NCBI RefSeq assembly: GCF_014652695.1
Contig: NZ_BMZH01000005.1
Coordinates: 124,001-188,000 of the forward strand
Length of the DNA: 64,000 nt
Reading direction: 5' to 3'
Source: Algimonas arctica
GTDB taxonomy: Bacteria > Pseudomonadota > Alphaproteobacteria > Caulobacterales > Maricaulaceae
Below, one piece after another: positions 36,401-44,014 of the stretch. A model generated the notes under the pieces. It worked only from the letters and a program-made list of their open reading frames with translations. It had not been told where the DNA came from and did not search any database. Each line of letters begins with the position of its first letter. The first letter of the stretch is position 1. The position numbers and the translations under genes were made by a program.

Positions 36401-36867
36401 TTGATAGCGACATAATCACGACTCATCGTCAATAATCGAACGGCGCAACTTGCCCACAGGACGACACAGAGTAACGTTCGCATGTCCCCGAAAGCGGACC
36501 ATAGTTAGCGTCTGACTTGAGGCGATTTTAGGACGCTCGGTTATCGGTTAAACATCCCCAACGTAGATTTAGTTAATTGGGTTGCTCTAGAGTTTCGTCT
36601 GGCTGTTTATGCTTGTCATTGCGGCAAAGTGAGACGCTAAAATTCAAGCCCCCTAGAAGTCAGATTATCACACAGTTCATCCCCTATGATTGACACGAAA
36701 AGGCTAATCGATCAGCGTTTCGCTCTGGCCCAAGGAACATGCTCTACTTCTTTTTAGGCTTTGATACGAGTTGAACAAAATGGACTGTCAGTTATCGTTA
36801 TAATAAAGCCGTATAATGTCCCGCGGAATACGCTCGGAATTCCCGACAATATAGAAAGATAGACGAG
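36401..36867. other. 467-bp intergenic region, boundary of the arsenic/phosphate cluster
   Basis: No credible gene on either strand. GC falls clearly compared with the FAD oxidase gene. The right end carries the promoter-like sequence of arsC (see 36785-36817). The rest shows no recognisable feature. Confidence 0.6.
36785..36817 (+). promoter_or_regulatory. Candidate Pho-box promoter of arsC
   Basis: CTGTCAG at 36785-36791 is close to a Pho-box half-site. It is followed 11 bases later by a weak second half (CGTTATA). A perfect -10 hexamer, TATAAT (36812-36817), lies about 10 bases after that. No good -35 hexamer is present, as expected for a PhoB-activated promoter. The second half is poor, so this is tentative. 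Confidence 0.4.
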
Positions 36868-37287
36868 ATGATTGTCATCCATCATAATCCCGATTGCGGT
36901 ACGTCTCGTAATGTTTTGGGAATTATTCGGGCTGCTGGATACGAGCCAGTTGTTGTGGACTATTTGAATGAAGGCTGGACACGCTCTCAGCTTCAGGCCT
37001 TACTAGCCGCGGCGGGCTTAAAACCGAGTGAAGCTCTTCGTAAAACGAAATCACCTGCCAAGGAGTTGGGTCTACTGAAAGAAGGTTTATGCGAGGAGCA
37101 TATCATAGCCTGCATGCTAGACCACCCAGTTCTCGTGAACCGTCCGATTGTCTGCACACAAAAAGGCGTCAAGCTTTGCCGACCAAGCGAGGCTGTTCTT
37201 GACCTGCTGGAGAATAAACCCAAAAAGCCGTTTCATAAAGAGCACGGAGAACTTCTAATTGATGAGCAAGGTCGAATATGTGTTTAA
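36868..37287 (+). CDS. arsC: Arsenate reductase, glutaredoxin-coupled ArsC
   Basis: 139 residues, full length for the E. coli-plasmid-type enzyme. The catalytic Cys10 sits in HNPDCGTSRNVL, and the arsenate-gripping arginines lie in EALRKTKSP and NRPIVCTQKGVKLCRP. It reduces arsenate to arsenite with glutathione and glutaredoxin. It converges on the pst/arsM operon with 192 bp between. GATAGACGAG before the ATG is a modest ribosome site. No arsenite exporter is next to it. Confidence 0.95.
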   Translation: MIVIHHNPDCGTSRNVLGIIRAAGYEPVVVDYLNEGWTRSQLQALLAAAGLKPSEALRKTKSPAKELGLLKEGLCEEHIIACMLDHPVLVNRPIVCTQKGVKLCRPSEAVLDLLENKPKKPFHKEHGELLIDEQGRICV

Positions 37288-37479
37288 CAATCGGAAAAAA
37301 GAATCTTTTATATCGAAACTCCAGTTGAGTGATCTAACAGCACTACTCAAAGTGTGCTAAGTGGGATTGTCACACACCTCTGTGTCGGAATCGCGCTACC
37401 TTGAACCACCATAAATTTGTATTTCATGATTTTGTCAGTTCTCGGCGGTGCGTCGATGATCGTCATAATTTTTCTGAGC

Positions 37480-38295
37480 TTAACAGTCGCAAAAATCTTC
37501 TGTGATATAGGTTTTAGTTTTTGCGGAACAGCGCGGGGAAAACATATGTGCGCGCGTGCCTTGCTCAACAATTTTACCATCACATAAAAATACGACGTGA
37601 TCTGAAATTCGTTTCGCTTGACCAATATTGTGCGTGACCATAACGATCGATATTTTGCGACCCAGAGAGATCACGAGCTCTTCAATCGCGTGGGATGAAA
37701 TCGGGTCAATCGACGCCGTTGGTTCATCGAGTAAAAGCACATCGGGCTCCAAAACCAAAGCGCGCGCCAAACACAGCCGTTGTTGCTGCCCGAGTGACAA
37801 TGAATCGGCCCGCCCTTCCAGCCGATTAGAAACCTCATCCCACAGTGATGCCAATTTCAGTCCGTGTTCAACGATGTCTCTGGCCTGCGCCTTTGAGAGT
37901 TTTTGGGTGCGTAAACCCATCAGTATATTGTCATAGATGGAACATGGAAAAACACAGGGTTGCTGAAAGACCATTCCAACGCGACGGCGCAGTTCCGTTA
38001 CATCCGGATAACCGCTCATAATATCGCGACCTAAAACCTTTACTGTCCCGGAGAAAGATGCACTTTCTGTTTCCTCATTTATACGGTTCAACCATCTCAG
38101 TATTGTAGATTTACCCGCACCCGAGGGTCCGACTAAACAGGTCACACCTTTTATCGGGAGCTTCAAATTGATGTCTGATACGATGCAGTTCTTGCCATAA
38201 TAAGCCGAAAAGCCATCAAGGCGGATCGAGTGAGATTGCACATCGACATCGCTGGATTGATTGCTGCTGACCAATAATAAATTAGGAATGTTCAT
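37480..38295 (-). CDS. pstB: Phosphate ABC transporter ATP-binding protein
   Basis: 271 residues. Walker A GPSGAGKST, the PstB-typical LNRINEETESASFSGTV, Q-loop VFQQPCVFPCSIYDN, signature region SLSLGQQQRLCLARAL, Walker B VLLLDEPTASIDPIS and switch VTHNIGQA. The signature reads LSLGQ rather than the canonical LSGGQ. It is the last gene of the operon; its ATG shares one base with the pstA stop (TAATG). The frame open to 38610 is read-through of pstA and not coding. Confidence 0.95.
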   Translation of the reverse strand: MNIPNLLLVSSNQSSDVDVQSHSIRLDGFSAYYGKNCIVSDINLKLPIKGVTCLVGPSGAGKSTILRWLNRINEETESASFSGTVKVLGRDIMSGYPDVTELRRRVGMVFQQPCVFPCSIYDNILMGLRTQKLSKAQARDIVEHGLKLASLWDEVSNRLEGRADSLSLGQQQRLCLARALVLEPDVLLLDEPTASIDPISSHAIEELVISLGRKISIVMVTHNIGQAKRISDHVVFLCDGKIVEQGTRAHMFSPRCSAKTKTYITEDFCDC

Positions 38296-39158
38296 TACTT
38301 CTGTCCCCGACCTGTAAGACGGCTGCGGGCAAACAAAGCCAAAAGACTGAAACCGCTGACCAGAAGCACCAGAATTAAACTGGCCCCCCACGCATTTTGT
38401 AGAGCTTGGGGATCCGTCGATTGTTGGGCGAGTTCTAAAATATGTGTGGGGAGGGTCGAGACCGGCTCCACCAAACTTTTGGGAACAGAAACGCCTGAGA
38501 ATGCCGTTGCGATAAACATGATGGGAGCTGTTTCTCCGATTGCGCGCGCTAATCCAATTAACGAACCCGTGACAATGCCATGAAAGCTCTGTGGCAATGT
38601 CACGCGCCAAATGATCTGCGATTTGCTGAGGCCTAATGCAGCGGCATTTTCATGATAAATTTTCGGGATAGCGACCATCGCTTGATAGGTAGACAGCGTC
38701 GTGGTCGGCAGCATCATAATCGCGAGTATCATTGAGCCGACAAACCAAGAAATACCGGTATTCAGAAAGTTAACGAAAAATATCAGTCCAAAAATACCGT
38801 AGGTGATCGAGGGGATTGCATTGAGCGCGTAGAGGCTTTGTTCAAGCAAATACCCGATGCTTGTTCGCGTGTTAAACGCATATTGAAACAGGGATGTCCC
38901 AATGGCCAGCGGAACAACCAATGCTGCGGCGACAAGCACCATCAACATACTGCCGAGAATTTGATAAAACACGCCCCCCGATTTCCCAAATTCCATAGCG
39001 GGCATGAACAGAAACTGCAGACTAATCGCACCAATCCCTTTGACAAAAATGGACCCTAACAAAAAGATCAATGTGCCCGCACATATCAATAGAGAGGCGC
39101 GCAAGACCAAGGCGAAACACCTTTCTTTGGTATGTCTGATATTTACCCGATCACACAT
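38295..39158 (-). CDS. pstA: Phosphate ABC transporter permease PstA
   Basis: 287 residues, six predicted membrane helices. Contains the binding-protein-dependent permease loop (EAA-type) AAALGLSKSQIIWRVTLPQS and GSLIGLARAIGETAPIMF, typical of PstA. It pairs with PstC as the membrane channel. Overlaps pstC by 8 bp. Codon use is AT-richer than in the backbone genes. Confidence 0.95.
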   Translation of the reverse strand: MCDRVNIRHTKERCFALVLRASLLICAGTLIFLLGSIFVKGIGAISLQFLFMPAMEFGKSGGVFYQILGSMLMVLVAAALVVPLAIGTSLFQYAFNTRTSIGYLLEQSLYALNAIPSITYGIFGLIFFVNFLNTGISWFVGSMILAIMMLPTTTLSTYQAMVAIPKIYHENAAALGLSKSQIIWRVTLPQSFHGIVTGSLIGLARAIGETAPIMFIATAFSGVSVPKSLVEPVSTLPTHILELAQQSTDPQALQNAWGASLILVLLVSGFSLLALFARSRLTGRGQK

Positions 39159-40053
39159 TTTCGGGCGTTTTCCTGAACAAATATCGAGACGTAATTGTTA
39201 GAATAACTGTTATTGAGACGAGTATCAGGCTCATGAAAACCAATGCGCTGAAGTGTACTGAGCCAAAGGCGCTTTCTGCCACTTCTCGGCCAAGTTTAGA
39301 GGTAATTGTTTGTCCGGATGACAAAGGGTTAAACAAAGGTGAGGGCAATCGGTCCAACGATCCAATCACCAACATGACGGCCATTGTTTCGCCGAGAGCG
39401 CGTCCCAATGCTAGCAGACCGGCCCCGGCGATTCCTGTTTTGGCCTGGGGAAGTATAACGCTGAAGAAAACCTCGTGCCTATAAAGGCCGAGGGACTTTG
39501 CATTTTCTCTGAACTTTGTCGGGATCGCAGAAATCGCATCTTCAGTTAACGTCAAAAACGTCGGCAGGATCATTATTCCAAGCAATATGCCAGCCGTTAA
39601 AATAACCCGACCCGATTGAAGGTCAAATATATCCGCAACCCAAATATTAAGGTGAGCCACACCGATCAAACCATAAACGATAGAGGGGATGCCCACCAAC
39701 ATTTCCAGAAAGAACTTGATGAGCCGTCTTAATCTAGACGACCGCGTTTCGGCAATATAGACGGCCGCTAACAGGCCTAGTGGGAATGCGACTGATACGG
39801 CAATGATCATGACAAAGACGGAGCCAAACAACATCGGCAAAACACCAAACTGACCTTTGTCCGGATTCCAACTCGTGCTCATAAGTCCACTGTTTTCCGC
39901 GAGCAATACCGGGCCGCTTTGCACGAATAGTGTCACGATGATCGTCAGGACAATAGACAGCGATAAGGCAGCGGATATCAGAGCATATATCTGTAAGCCC
40001 TTTAGCTTTCCAAATATCCGATTTGGCCACGTTGGAGAAAGACTGCGGCTCAA
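39151..40053 (-). CDS. pstC: Phosphate ABC transporter permease PstC
   Basis: 300 residues, six membrane helices. Typical stretches: GKLKGLQIYALISAALSLSI, EMLVGIPSIVYGLIGV, AKSLGLYRHEVFFSVILPQA and LALGRALGETMAVMLVIGS. The start is a TTG overlapping the pstS TGA (TTGA), suggesting translational coupling. No other start fits. Confidence 0.94.
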   Translation of the reverse strand: MSRSLSPTWPNRIFGKLKGLQIYALISAALSLSIVLTIIVTLFVQSGPVLLAENSGLMSTSWNPDKGQFGVLPMLFGSVFVMIIAVSVAFPLGLLAAVYIAETRSSRLRRLIKFFLEMLVGIPSIVYGLIGVAHLNIWVADIFDLQSGRVILTAGILLGIMILPTFLTLTEDAISAIPTKFRENAKSLGLYRHEVFFSVILPQAKTGIAGAGLLALGRALGETMAVMLVIGSLDRLPSPLFNPLSSGQTITSKLGREVAESAFGSVHFSALVFMSLILVSITVILTITSRYLFRKTPENV

Positions 40054-40877
40054 TTAGCGATTCCAATATATCCAGAGTTATTGACCATTTTCTGCCCGTT
40101 TGGCCCCAGTAAGTAATCAATAAATTCTTTGGCGGGCGGTTTTACGTCGCCCCGTATGACGACATTTAAATCTCTGACAAACGGGTATGAACCTGCTTGA
40201 ATGTTTTCATGAGTGGCTTCAACGACTTCGCCATCCTGTAGAATAATTGCGAGCCCCCGGACGTCCTCATTTAACCACGCGACAGAAAGCATCCCAATGG
40301 CTGCATCGCTTTGGACGAGGGCGGTTTGCTCTTCATTATTGGACCCGGTTACCAAGTCAGTCCCAGGCGCTTCGGCTTTAGGGTCTCCTAATACGACCCG
40401 CATGAAGACTTGCCGTGTGCCTCGGCTTGCTTCTTTATCAATCACAAATATGGCGCGATCCGGTCCACCGACTTCGGACCAGTTTTGCACTTTGCCCGTG
40501 TAGATGCCTGCGATTTGAGGTAGGGTAAGTGCCTGAACGCCTGCGTCATAAATTTCCGATGAGATACTTGGCACAACCGCATCACGCCCAATTGCAATTT
40601 CCGTAAAGTTGAAGGACTTGAAGGCGTCTCGTTCACCGTCGGTGATATTGCGGGACATCATGCCAATGTCACTTTGGCCCTCTGCCAACTGATTAAAGCC
40701 TCCACCAGATCCGCCGGCATTCACTATAACTGAAATGCCTGTCTCAGATGAAAATAGGTCAGCAGCTTTTGAGACCGGGGGCAGAACTGTTGACGAACCG
40801 GAAACATAGATAGCTTCCGGCGCAGAACAGGCCGCGAGCAGTACTGCTAAACTTAAAATACCAAAATTTTTAAACAT
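40050..40877 (-). CDS. pstS: Phosphate ABC transporter substrate-binding lipoprotein
   Basis: 275 residues. Lipobox LAAC (Cys17), so it is tethered outside the membrane. The PBP-like domain opens IYVSGSSTVLPPVSKAADLF and has GGSGGGFNQLAEGQSDIGMMSR, IYTGKVQNWSEVGGPD and EASRGTRQVF, which are the loops that bind phosphate in PstS. Shorter than E. coli PstS (346). Whether it prefers phosphate over arsenate cannot be read from the sequence. 18 bp separate it from arsM. Confidence 0.93.
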   Translation of the reverse strand: MFKNFGILSLAVLLAACSAPEAIYVSGSSTVLPPVSKAADLFSSETGISVIVNAGGSGGGFNQLAEGQSDIGMMSRNITDGERDAFKSFNFTEIAIGRDAVVPSISSEIYDAGVQALTLPQIAGIYTGKVQNWSEVGGPDRAIFVIDKEASRGTRQVFMRVVLGDPKAEAPGTDLVTGSNNEEQTALVQSDAAIGMLSVAWLNEDVRGLAIILQDGEVVEATHENIQAGSYPFVRDLNVVIRGDVKPPAKEFIDYLLGPNGQKMVNNSGYIGIAN

Positions 40878-40895
40878 GCTAAAGACAATCTTGGA

Positions 40896-41960
40896 CTAGC
40901 AGCAGCTGCTACCGCCTGAGAATGGGTTATTTTCAACCGCCGGTACATCTTCAAAAATTTGAGGGGCTTTGCAATTTGGGAACTTTCCGAAATGCGTTTT
41001 ACCTTCACCCACAACTTCAAAATAGGACGTGAAACGCGTGTCCTTTAACATCGATAATGTGTTGCCGCAGACAGGAAAGACCCGGCCGGCTTCAATTTCG
41101 TGATCTGTGTCGAGTTTGAAAACGCGCTCCATGCCCGGCACGCCGCCTTTATAAATGACGGCCTGACCATAATCTTCACATCCGGCGTCAGCATTCTCAA
41201 GCTTCATCAGACGCGCTGTGACAGATGCAAATTTGATAGACTCGATTTTATCTTTCACTTTTTGATCAATAATTGAAAGCGGTCTGTGATCGAAAACGCG
41301 CGGATCTAAAAATCCAGCCGTTTTTGCAATTTGAATATAATCATCCCAATACAGCGCACCTGACAAACACTCGCCATAAAGCACCTCGTCTTCGATCAAG
41401 TGTTGGGGAATGCGTCGATCAGAATAAACATCCGCGAAGTAGACCTCCCCGCCATCTTTCAACAAGTCATAAGTGGCTTTGAAAACGGCTGGTTTATCAA
41501 CGCAAAGATTAAAGACACAATTTGATATGATCAGATCGAAACTTCCCTTTTCAAGGTCAAGTTCGTCCAGCTTCTCGAGATAGCCTTCAAGGAACCGTGT
41601 GTTCGGATTGTCGTAGCCAAATTTTTCCGCATGCCACGTCTCATGCGCCCGCGCGACTTCGAGCTGTTCAGGTGTCATATCGACACCTGTCACATGGCCA
41701 TTCGGTCCGACGAGCTTTGCTAGGGCGTAAACATCGCGGCCTGCCCCGCATCCTAAATCTAAGACTTTCAAACCGTCGAGGCATTCCGGAATGGCTAGAC
41801 CACACCCGTAGTAACGAGATGAGACTTCATCATGGATAAGGCTAAGTGCGTCCCGAATTTGGAGTGTCGGTATTTCCAATGTAGAACAGGCGTCCGTTTT
41901 TAAATCACACGTCCCTCCCAGCGTATCTCCGTAATACGTTTTGACAACTTCATGTAACAT
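40896..41960 (-). CDS. arsM: Arsenite S-adenosylmethionine methyltransferase ArsM
   Basis: 354 residues. SAM-binding motif VLDLGCGAGRDVYALAKLVG. The three cysteines needed for As(III) binding and methylation are visible: Cys53 (YYGCG), Cys148 (SNCVFNL) and Cys198 (YGECLSGALYW). An extra N-terminal pair (Cys18, Cys25) and a C-terminal GGSSCC tail could also bind arsenic. It adds methyl groups to arsenite, giving mono- to trimethylated species. Encoded between the radical SAM gene (33 bp upstream) and pstS (18 bp downstream), so arsenic chemistry and phosphate uptake share one transcript. Confidence 0.95.
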   Translation of the reverse strand: MLHEVVKTYYGDTLGGTCDLKTDACSTLEIPTLQIRDALSLIHDEVSSRYYGCGLAIPECLDGLKVLDLGCGAGRDVYALAKLVGPNGHVTGVDMTPEQLEVARAHETWHAEKFGYDNPNTRFLEGYLEKLDELDLEKGSFDLIISNCVFNLCVDKPAVFKATYDLLKDGGEVYFADVYSDRRIPQHLIEDEVLYGECLSGALYWDDYIQIAKTAGFLDPRVFDHRPLSIIDQKVKDKIESIKFASVTARLMKLENADAGCEDYGQAVIYKGGVPGMERVFKLDTDHEIEAGRVFPVCGNTLSMLKDTRFTSYFEVVGEGKTHFGKFPNCKAPQIFEDVPAVENNPFSGGSSCC

Positions 41961-41993
41961 TTGAAACTCTTTTCTTTAAAAAATAAGTTGGGT

Positions 41994-42941
41994 TTAAGCG
42001 GAGCAACTTCCGCCCCCTAAGACGCAAAACGTCGCGCAGTAGGGGTGGTTAAGCGAAACGGATTGACGCGATTCCTCGAGCGTATTGCCTAATTCAAAAC
42101 GTTCATCATAAGGGATAAGCGTGCAGGCAACAACAGAGGTCTTTCCAGCTCCTTTTCTTTTCACAATCATCCGGCTGTTTGAACACATTTGGTCTGCGGG
42201 CGATTTATCCAAAATACCCCAGCAAGCATTTGTGATTTCAGGCGGATCGTCCGTTCCCTTCATTTCAGGGAACAAGACCAAACGCGTTGTGTCATTCGGG
42301 TCTATGCCAAGTTTATGATCTTTTATAAGTTTTGCGTAGCCCGCCCGGGAGACCTCTTCACTTTCACCCCACACAGTCCTCCCCGCGAGATCGAGCTCAA
42401 ACCCTTCAGCCGCAAGCCAACTGAGCCCAATTGAGGCAGAAGCGAACGCGCCTCGACCGCGTTCCACATTGTGTAATTCTTCTGAGTAATGATCAAGACT
42501 TACCCGGAAGCGCATTTGTTCATTATAGCGCTCTTGCAAAGCCTTGAGACTGCTTTGAACCCGCTTGCGCATGAGAGGTTTCATGGCGTTTGTGAGGACC
42601 AATGCTGTGTGCCCTCGGCTGACGACGGCTTCGATTATGGCCACCATGTCCGGTGCAAGAAATGGCTCACCGCCCGTGAACCCAATTTCAATGCCGTGTT
42701 CTCCAGCGACGTCAAGCTCATCTAAGTAAGGGACGACATCATCGACGCTCAGATAAACAAGGCGGTCATTCGTGGGCGAGCTCTCAATGTAACAATTCAG
42801 GCACTCAATATTGCACAAAGTGCCCGTGTTGAACCAAAGGGTTTTTGTGCCTTGATACTTAATCCAAGCGCGCGCCTCCCCTTTCATAGTCCGATGGGGA
42901 TCGGAAAACTTAGTTTCAGGCAGGATTTGAAGGTTACTCAT
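41994..42941 (-). CDS. Radical SAM protein linked to arsM
   Basis: 315 residues. Canonical CxxxCxxC cluster motif at Cys43, Cys47 and Cys50 (GTLCNIECLNCYIES), then GFTGGEPFLAPDM and a TIM-barrel-like core. The C-terminal third holds seven more cysteines (ITNACWGIL, DQMCSNS, VVACTLIPYD, HPYCATFCVLGGGSCS, which include the terminal triad), possibly an auxiliary iron-sulfur cluster or arsenic ligands. It lacks the NMPI.RF-type C-terminal signature I associate with ArsS, the known arsenosugar enzyme, and it has the canonical cysteine motif, unlike what I recall of ArsL. Reaction unknown; acting on a methylated arsenical is inference from position. ATG at 42941 chosen; a TTG at 42950 is possible. 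Confidence 0.85.
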   Translation of the reverse strand: MSNLQILPETKFSDPHRTMKGEARAWIKYQGTKTLWFNTGTLCNIECLNCYIESSPTNDRLVYLSVDDVVPYLDELDVAGEHGIEIGFTGGEPFLAPDMVAIIEAVVSRGHTALVLTNAMKPLMRKRVQSSLKALQERYNEQMRFRVSLDHYSEELHNVERGRGAFASASIGLSWLAAEGFELDLAGRTVWGESEEVSRAGYAKLIKDHKLGIDPNDTTRLVLFPEMKGTDDPPEITNACWGILDKSPADQMCSNSRMIVKRKGAGKTSVVACTLIPYDERFELGNTLEESRQSVSLNHPYCATFCVLGGGSCSA

Positions 42942-42976
42942 TTGGCTCAAACTTTTTAAGACTTCGTCAACGCATG

Positions 42977-42994: not shown

Positions 42995-43137
42995 ATTTCC
43001 AATTCACTTTGTATGGCGCTTTCGTGATGACAAGAAAGATATTGTAGGGCTTTACTATCAAAAAAAGCCCTGGCTAACGAAGCCGAAAAAACTTGTGCGA
43101 GTGTTCTACTTTGATTGTTTGTGGCCATATCGGCAAA

Positions 43138-43240: not shown

Positions 43241-44014
43241 TCATGGGGCGGCTTCGCTCTTTTGACCAAGTTCGATCATCAGCTCGTCGAGGAGCCCTCT
43301 GGCGATTTCAGAGTTTCCTTGGACAATTATGTTTGCCACTTCCAGTGCCGAAACCCAGTAGCGTAATTCGTCCAGAATAGGTTCGCTTGAGTTGAGGCGG
43401 TCAATAACGGGCTGAATTTCTGAGTCTTCTGCAGGCGCGGAGCAGGATTTCAACGTCTGAATACCGCCGTCAGTTTGGTAGCAGTTGGACCAGATATATA
43501 ATTGCATGCGCACAGGTATGATGCTCCGAACATGCTCCCGATAAGGCGGACGTTCGCGCAGACTTTCATAACCGGGATAAGCATAATACTCGGAAAGTTG
43601 GCTGCGCAGGTGCGCGTCGCGTATAAGGCCGAGCTCACCCGCACTTTTCAATTCCTCAAACGTCGCGTTTGAAGGGAAAAATTCAGCCACTTGGCTCGCC
43701 TGAAAATAGGCTAGTAAAAGCTCCCAAGGCTTGAGCAATTTGCCGCCATTGTTGGCTTCATCCAGCACAACCAGACCATTATCAGAAACCTGCCGCCAAA
43801 ACTGTATCCGGTCATCATAAATCGCGATTTCTTTAACCAGATCGGTGGCTATCCTTTCAAGATATTGCTCCGAACGTGCTTGGCTCGCACGCGCTTCATT
43901 CCAATTCGCGACCTGAAGCCCGATGAATACGCCGCCGACAACGATGACAAAGTCGAGTGCAACCGCGAACCAATTCTGGTCTTTCACATGTTTGGATATG
44001 CTTCGAAGTAACAT
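43241..44014 (-). CDS. Hypothetical membrane-anchored protein, DUF6090-like
   Basis: 257 residues. An N-terminal helix (about 17-38) carries the pattern VVGGVFIGLQVANWNEAR, which recurs at the start of many marine bacterial proteins annotated as DUF6090. The rest is a soluble helical domain, with ERIATDLVKEIAIYDDRI typical of that group. A Cys pair (SNCYQ, LKSCS) may form a disulfide. Function unknown. Transcribed alone on the minus strand. Confidence 0.7.
   Translation of the reverse strand: MLLRSISKHVKDQNWFAVALDFVIVVGGVFIGLQVANWNEARASQARSEQYLERIATDLVKEIAIYDDRIQFWRQVSDNGLVVLDEANNGGKLLKPWELLLAYFQASQVAEFFPSNATFEELKSAGELGLIRDAHLRSQLSEYYAYPGYESLRERPPYREHVRSIIPVRMQLYIWSNCYQTDGGIQTLKSCSAPAEDSEIQPVIDRLNSSEPILDELRYWVSALEVANIIVQGNSEIARGLLDELMIELGQKSEAAP

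Follow-up and report, generated by a model that had tools for sequence, protein, structure and literature searches.

An operon of Algimonas arctica that joins a radical SAM gene, a predicted arsenite methyltransferase gene and putative phosphate importer genes

Introduction

Arsenosugars and arsenolipids are major forms of arsenic in marine food. The known starters of their synthesis are ArsM and ArsS, for which cyanobacteria provide the best documentation. Here, we describe a cluster of seven genes in a 64,000-nucleotide stretch of the Algimonas arctica genome (contig NZ_BMZH01000005.1, positions 124,001 to 188,000 of the forward strand), referred to as the window. The cluster consists of arsC and an operon of a radical S-adenosylmethionine (SAM) gene (rSAM), arsM, and the phosphate importer genes pstS, pstC, pstA, and pstB. 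Two other kinds of locus come close to it: Pst operons beside arsenite oxidase and ars genes, described in excerpts of PMC3954881, and the arsinothricin cluster arsQML, described in excerpts of PMC8552651.

We propose that the cluster is a compact arsenic unit that converts arsenic instead of exporting it. The radical SAM protein would make an As-adenosyl compound, the product would be arsenosugar-like, and Pst would guard the phosphate supply. We give this explanation about an even chance of being correct. The arsenosugar part is strengthened because the radical SAM protein is a probable remote homologue of ArsS and is tied to glycosyltransferases and ArsM by co-occurrence and adjacency.

Results and discussion

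Organization and conservation of the operon

The operon lies on the minus strand in the order rSAM-arsM-pstS-pstC-pstA-pstB, and arsC converges on its end from the plus strand (Table 1). Gaps of 33 bp and 18 bp separate rSAM from arsM and arsM from pstS, respectively, and the Pst genes overlap one another; the coordinates bear out the tight operon described in the original prediction, which was made from the window alone. The likely start of rSAM is the ATG at 42941, with an in-frame TTG alternative at 42950.

Scanning of genome contigs with rSAM gave one locus, L002, which is a contig of a same-genus Caulobacterales metagenome-assembled genome (G396). L002 retains rSAM-arsM-pstS-pstC up to the end of the contig, which falls inside pstC; the spacings are 32 and 18 bp. 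The genes rSAM, arsM, and pstS are under purifying selection, with ratios of non-synonymous to synonymous substitution rates (dN/dS) between the window and L002 of 0.088, 0.038, and 0.070, respectively. The arrangement is more than chance, because L002 retains the order and spacing of the genes at low dN/dS. The gene flanking the operon upstream is not the same in L002. In the window, a Pfam search at E <= 1e-5 gave no match for a 257-amino-acid protein encoded upstream of the operon (43241-44014, minus strand).

The GC content of the window reaches its minimum among all 6-kb steps, 0.473, at position 36500 (mean 0.543, standard deviation 0.027). The GC content of arsC is close to that of the operon, which fits the acquisition of arsC and the operon as a single piece.

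Table 1 Features of the arsenic and phosphate gene cluster in the window
Feature	Coordinates	Strand	Assignment and matches
arsC	36868-37287	+	Glutaredoxin-type arsenate reductase; TIGR00014 107.6 bits (cut-off 106.05); GC 0.476
pstB	37480-38313	-	Predicted ATPase of divergent Pst; TIGR00972 292 bits (cut-off 343.2)
pstA	38295-39158	-	Predicted permease; TIGR00974 192.9 bits (cut-off 193.45)
pstC	39151-40053	-	Predicted permease; TIGR02138 232.6 bits (cut-off 196.45)
pstS	40050-40877	-	Predicted phosphate-binding protein; TIGR02136 182.9 bits (cut-off 206.6); PDB 4q8r, E 1.9e-28
arsM	40896-41960	-	Predicted arsenite methyltransferase; PDB 5evj, E 3.6e-92; PDB 4fr0, E 9.6e-76
rSAM	41994-42941	-	Radical SAM protein, probable remote ArsS homologue; PF04055; TIGR04167 49.3 bits (cut-off 300)
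17-bp promoter-like element, operon side	43038-43054	-	Upstream of the operon that starts with rSAM
17-bp promoter-like element, arsC side	36804-36820	+	Upstream of arsC; suggestive only

ArsC, ArsM, and the rest of the genome

ArsC passes the curated cut-off of TIGR00014. The product of arsM is predicted to be an arsenite methyltransferase in the general sense, judged by its homology to solved ArsM enzymes and its conserved cysteines. Residues Cys25, Cys53, Cys148, and Cys198 align with those of the enzymes 5evj and 4fr0, which confirms the three catalytic cysteines named in the original prediction and adds Cys25 to them. The protein scores below the cut-offs of NF008823 (150.1 vs 263 bits) and of the arsenosugar-ArsM family NF038099 (93.2 vs 400 bits).

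The cluster encodes neither ArsR nor an arsenite exporter, as had been noted from its sequence, and is not a canonical ars operon. The same holds beyond the cluster in the 3.25 Mb genome (G000; 49 contigs, 99.98% complete): the whole-genome search gave no match to ArsB or ArsP and no SBF (Acr3-type) match over the cut-off; ArsJ, ArsK, and ArsQ were not searched for. One SBF-like fragment close to the beginning of contig C28 reaches 20.5 bits, below the Pfam cut-off, and NCBIfam gave no match to it at E <= 0.01. None of the seven ArsR-type matches in the genome carries a CxC or CxxC motif.

Several genes elsewhere in the genome are of kinds found in or around the cluster. They comprise an ArsM-like second gene (C12:25366-26547), a homologue of MTAP on C17 (45%), a TIGR04283-like and a TIGR04282-like gene side by side on C9, and a second rSAM copy (C2:169653-170570, 57%). 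This last copy comes after genes for BtuC- and BtuD-like transporters (L052 6094-9574, G000:C2).

The radical SAM protein and its family

The radical SAM protein is predicted to be a remote homologue of ArsS that belongs to a separate family. It is 318 amino acids long. Fifty sequences from fetched loci all share the CxxxCxxC motif and Cys243, 256, 276, 305, and 309; Cys316 is present in 92% of them. The match to the ArsS family TIGR04167 is limited to residues 31-185 and fails the cut-off, which rules out naming the protein ArsS. A profile of the family aligned with one ArsS over 142 core columns at default settings (E 1.6e-14). Under a permissive setting, its alignment with four ArsS proteins extended to 291 columns (E 3.5e-17) and brought five C-terminal cysteines into register. 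A regular expression written for the cysteines of the C-terminus proved overly strict, matching 16 of the 50 rSAM sequences, all four ArsS proteins, and 28 of 1446 open reading frames from all fetched loci, rSAM copies included.

The profile comparison also ranked other proteins. Control proteins from Miltoncostaea (E 2.2e-23) and from a Marinobacter plasmid frame (E 9.3e-26) scored better on the core than ArsS, and a second Roseomonas rSAM scored worse (E 3.4e-8). Solved structures searched by sequence with rSAM gave no match, and an ArsS query gave none in a phage collection. An AlphaFold2 model of rSAM from a two-sequence alignment has a mean predicted local distance difference test (pLDDT) of 34.2. 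A distant rSAM relative (31%) is encoded directly after a gene for a PhnD/SsuA-type binding protein on a Mycolicibacterium vanbaalenii plasmid (L188 1946-3762).

The adjacency of rSAM and arsM resembles arsQML in the excerpts of PMC8552651 and thereby raises an arsinothricin-like pathway, in which rSAM, as an ArsL, would attach a 3-amino-3-carboxypropyl group before methylation by ArsM. ArsL as described there has 428 residues and three conserved cysteines, whereas the window protein is shorter and has six more; this cysteine pattern rules out the assignment of rSAM as ArsL. The pst genes are, moreover, the sole transporter genes in the cluster. We consider such a pathway very improbable.

Association with arsenosugar-type partners

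Members of the rSAM family, called at E <= 1e-15, were found in 116 of the 385 sampled genomes of the class, the genome of the window included (about 30%). Co-occurrence with TIGR04283 was counted at E <= 1e-30, since weaker matches lack specificity, being found in 13 of 14 control genomes. Among the matches listed, TIGR04283 is present in 109 of the 116 rSAM genomes vs 37 of the 269 genomes without rSAM. The two genes lie within 10 kb of each other in at least 16 of the 109 genomes, where 0.6 to 1.1 are expected. The ArsM of the window type occurs in 11 of the 385 genomes, and rSAM is present in all 11. ArsM-type matches to NF008823 at E <= 1e-30 were found in 41 genomes, 33 of which carry rSAM (22 of 30 with the window type excluded). 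Likewise, the ArsM-like gene of the C12 type is present in nine of 147 genomes, eight of which are also on the rSAM list. Seven ArsM-type matches in the class contain one in-frame TGA, which perhaps encodes selenocysteine instead of marking a broken gene (G196:C228, G313:C143, G208:C28, G093:C75, G281:C24, G194:C88, and G287:C79).

Gene neighbourhoods, mapped for the fetched loci out of the 116 rSAM genomes, place ArsM beside or near rSAM in G116, G167, G244, G319, G325, G396, G406, G480, and G523, in addition to G000. The two genes adjoin in G406, G523, and G167, and are near each other in G244, G325, and G480. In G319, rSAM stands together with TIGR04282, TIGR04283, MTAP, and ArsM. In G329, it is accompanied by homologues of TIGR04282, TIGR04283, and MTAP, and in G116 by ArsM and the two glycosyltransferases. 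The same kinds of partners surround plasmid-borne genes annotated as ArsS: ArsM in Pseudanabaena; TIGR04283, an epimerase, and DUF547 in Hymenobacter; and TIGR04282 and a fatty-acid-hydroxylase-type gene in Thiodictyon.

The link between rSAM and ArsM was gained or lost several times on the rSAM tree. The ArsM-linked label requires six changes, five of them forced by well-supported branches, and 33 of 500 shuffles need as few. The ArsM-linked rSAM of G406 is an orthologue of the other rSAM copy of the window genome (support 100/99). The tree contains 49 rows from fetched loci; the very long row of G116 was dropped, and G480 was left unlabelled, though its rSAM is near arsM.

Two further observations concern the surroundings of these genes. 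On plasmid p546-1 of Roseomonas haemaphysalidis (L147 2043-9003), an rSAM of the window type lies between TIGR04282, DUF547, another radical SAM gene, and an importer of the PhnD/PhnE type accompanied by a metallophosphoesterase; the locus is a further pairing of a window-type rSAM with an oxyanion-type ABC importer. Genes for carboxymuconolactone decarboxylases (AhpD-like) are found near ArsM, ArsM-like, or rSAM genes in four loci (L132 7961-8497, L103 10521-11093, L175 3601-4161, and L189 2453-3019).

The Pst importer

The importer encoded in the operon is predicted to be the third, divergent Pst of the genome (Pst3). PstC scores over its NCBIfam cut-off, and PstB, PstA, and PstS score under theirs; two further PstB genes of the genome pass the curated cut-off with 395.8 and 365.4 bits. 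In the motif blocks compared, the ligand motifs of PstS3 are the same as those of stand-alone orthologues, which points to an ordinary phosphate importer.

Conservation of the six-gene order in relatives, named as a check in the original prediction, is not supported; the survey confines the order to a genus-level arrangement. ArsM was found at E <= 1e-40 in 25 of 149 relatives, and its flanks were inspected in 23 of them (all except G508 and G512). The rSAM gene is beside or near arsM in five of the 23 (G000, G396, G406, G480, and G523), and pst is attached in G000 and G396. PstS3 was found at E <= 1e-25 in 16 of the 149 relatives. All of these except G000 and G396 carry Pst3 without an adjoining arsM of the window type; in one of them, G385, the contig ends inside pstA. 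G524 carries Pst3 and an unlinked ArsM. The Pst3 genes are divergent to a second ArsM-like gene in G455 and G427, and stand beside phoU and a response-regulator gene in G385. In view of the stand-alone copies, the phoU linkage in G385, and the unchanged ligand motifs, we reject Pst3 as an arsenic-only transporter.

The pst genes could have come to lie behind arsM through rearrangement, with transcriptional read-through and no functional tie. The 14 relatives with Pst3 at other sites and the attachment in two genomes only speak for this explanation. However, the 18-bp gap is retained in L002 despite wide synonymous divergence, pstS is under purifying selection, and in G455 and G427 the same Pst again neighbours an ArsM-like gene. 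We regard an accidental attachment as unlikely.

The original prediction assigned Pst a different role, that of an inlet for arsenate under low phosphate, with the arsenate then being converted. The coupling of the importer and the converting enzymes in one operon agrees with such a role, and so does one Pst near arsenite oxidase genes that, according to the excerpts of PMC3954881, binds phosphate as well as arsenate. In the same excerpts, however, a second Pst from such a location is cited with a selectivity for phosphate of at least 1000-fold, and the PstS motifs of the operon are those of relatives without arsenic genes. The upstream regions of the operon and arsC, described below, also lack a Pho-box-like site. 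We consider an arsenate inlet distinctly unlikely; the copies without adjoining arsM, the copy beside phoU, and the shared ligand motifs speak against a dedicated one.

Regulation

Pho-box-like sites were scored by comparing site strength with that of 300 random segments, and the figures give the number of segments scoring as well. The upstream regions of the window rSAM and arsC contain no Pho-box-like site; the best candidates there are matched by 210 and 297 of the 300 segments, respectively. Control of the unit by low phosphate, as originally predicted, is not supported. Nor is phoU linked to the operon; the phoU linkage of the genome is at C16. A Pho-box-like site (0/300) precedes the C16 operon and lies ahead of the gene preceding pstS. 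The site ahead of C17 is matched by 5/300 segments in the nearest 82 bp and by 37/300 over 348 bp. Among the 14 stand-alone Pst3 loci, L163 scores 0/300, L173 10, L170 and L172 22 each, and the other ten at least 49. Since the Pho box is missing at most of these loci, its lack at the operon proves little alone. Pho control of the operon is not favoured.

The upstream regions of the operon and arsC have a 17-mer in common, and the 64 kb contain no other site within three mismatches of the two-site pattern. The 17-mer is present in L002 with two mismatches. Sharing of this extent is equalled by 17 of 1000 random 120-bp pairs and by 25 of 200 full-length pairs, and the promoter-like element is no more than suggestive. 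A scan of promoters and terminators gave 12 and 8 sites vs 8.9 and 7.9 in shuffles.

A proposed arsenic-converting pathway

Gene identities, the structure of the operon, purifying selection, co-occurrence, and recurrent adjacency are observed; each chemical step, the end product, how the unit is regulated, and what Pst does are inferred as follows. Arsenate would enter the cell via phosphate routes and be reduced to arsenite by ArsC. ArsM would methylate arsenite to dimethylarsinite, and the radical SAM protein would join the 5'-deoxyadenosyl group of SAM to the methylated arsenic. These ArsM-ArsS steps follow a known route, as described in excerpts of PMC8552651 and PMC12159101. Judging by gene neighbourhoods, an MTAP-like phosphorylase encoded elsewhere in the genome may then split off adenine, and a CofC-like TIGR04282 protein may activate the arsenoribose. 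A TIGR04283-like glycosyltransferase would move the arsenoribose to an acceptor, for example glycerol or a lipid. Pst would be a general phosphate importer recruited to the unit, most likely serving the entry of phosphate ahead of arsenate. We favour an arsenic-responsive unit in which Pst would protect the phosphate supply. The original idea of an organoarsenical, perhaps an arsenosugar, draws support from the remote ArsS homology, the co-occurrence, and the adjacency, although the radical SAM protein belongs to a different family from ArsS.

Several observations weigh against this explanation. The core of the radical SAM protein is nearer to Rv1681-type proteins than to ArsS: its top NCBIfam match is the Rv1681 family NF049973 (84.6 bits vs 49.3 for ArsS), which fails the cut-off of 380 and ends at residue 211, before the C-terminal cysteines. 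In the profile comparison, an Rv1681-type Mycolicibacterium protein beats ArsS on the core (E 1.9e-26, 172 columns), with no matching C-terminus. The C-terminal half alone scores 26.1 against ArsS (top of 60 shuffles 19.7), yet over only 20 columns. No ArsM-type match at the NF008823 threshold was found in 83 of the 116 rSAM genomes. The family may work on a different substrate, draw on methylarsenic taken up from outside, or be partnered by unrecognised methyltransferases. The counts are uncorrected for shared ancestry. The C9 glycosyltransferase pair scores 161.5 and 128.2 bits, below both cut-offs (182 and 134), and is on a different contig from the operon. Finally, the attachment of Pst is restricted to two genomes.

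The nearness of the core to Rv1681-type proteins and the many rSAM genomes without a recognised ArsM, together with the second rSAM copy behind BtuC/BtuD-like genes, would be expected if, in most of the class, rSAM and the glycosyltransferases made a compound that has nothing to do with arsenic, and rSAM here stood beside an ArsM giving simple methylarsenicals. Against this stand the presence of rSAM in every carrier of the window-type ArsM, the co-occurrence with other ArsM types, and the recurrence of ArsM-rSAM adjacency across different rSAM lineages. We judge an unrelated product to be rather unlikely.

Extending the arsenic-converting pathway to the class, we tentatively suggest, with more doubt than confidence, that rSAM represents a second lineage, so far unrecognised, of radical SAM proteins that adenosylate arsenic. 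Present in about 30% of the sampled genomes of the class, it would work with MTAP, TIGR04282, and TIGR04283 to make compounds resembling arsenosugars or arsenolipids; in this genus, it would be wired with a phosphate importer in one arsenic-responsive operon, without an ArsB, ArsP, or Acr3-type exporter. If the family does perform the ArsS reaction, many genomes of the class become candidate producers with a defined, testable gene set. The operon would also be a simple system for studying how a cell that converts arsenic instead of exporting it tells phosphate from arsenate.

Comparison with known systems

Our literature search found no paper combining arsM, radical SAM, and pst genes. The closest relative of the locus is the arsenosugar pathway of ArsM, ArsS (TIGR04167), and TIGR04282/TIGR04283. 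It shares with the rSAM family the same kinds of partners around a radical SAM gene, and the window rSAM is probably a remote homologue of its ArsS. The locus differs from it in that rSAM and ArsM score below the ArsS and arsenosugar-ArsM cut-offs, the glycosyltransferases are on another contig, and Pst is attached. The Rv1681 family provides the best NCBIfam match of rSAM; however, the cut-off is missed and the C-terminal cysteines are outside the match. In the arsinothricin cluster arsQML, according to the excerpts of PMC8552651, ArsM likewise adjoins a radical SAM gene, whereas the window rSAM has a different cysteine pattern and length, and its cluster has no arsQ-like gene. The Pst operons beside arsenite oxidase and ars genes, as described in the excerpts of PMC3954881, resemble the locus in that a high-affinity phosphate importer adjoins arsenic genes. 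In the window, by contrast, the partners of Pst are arsM and a radical SAM gene, and all are joined in one operon.

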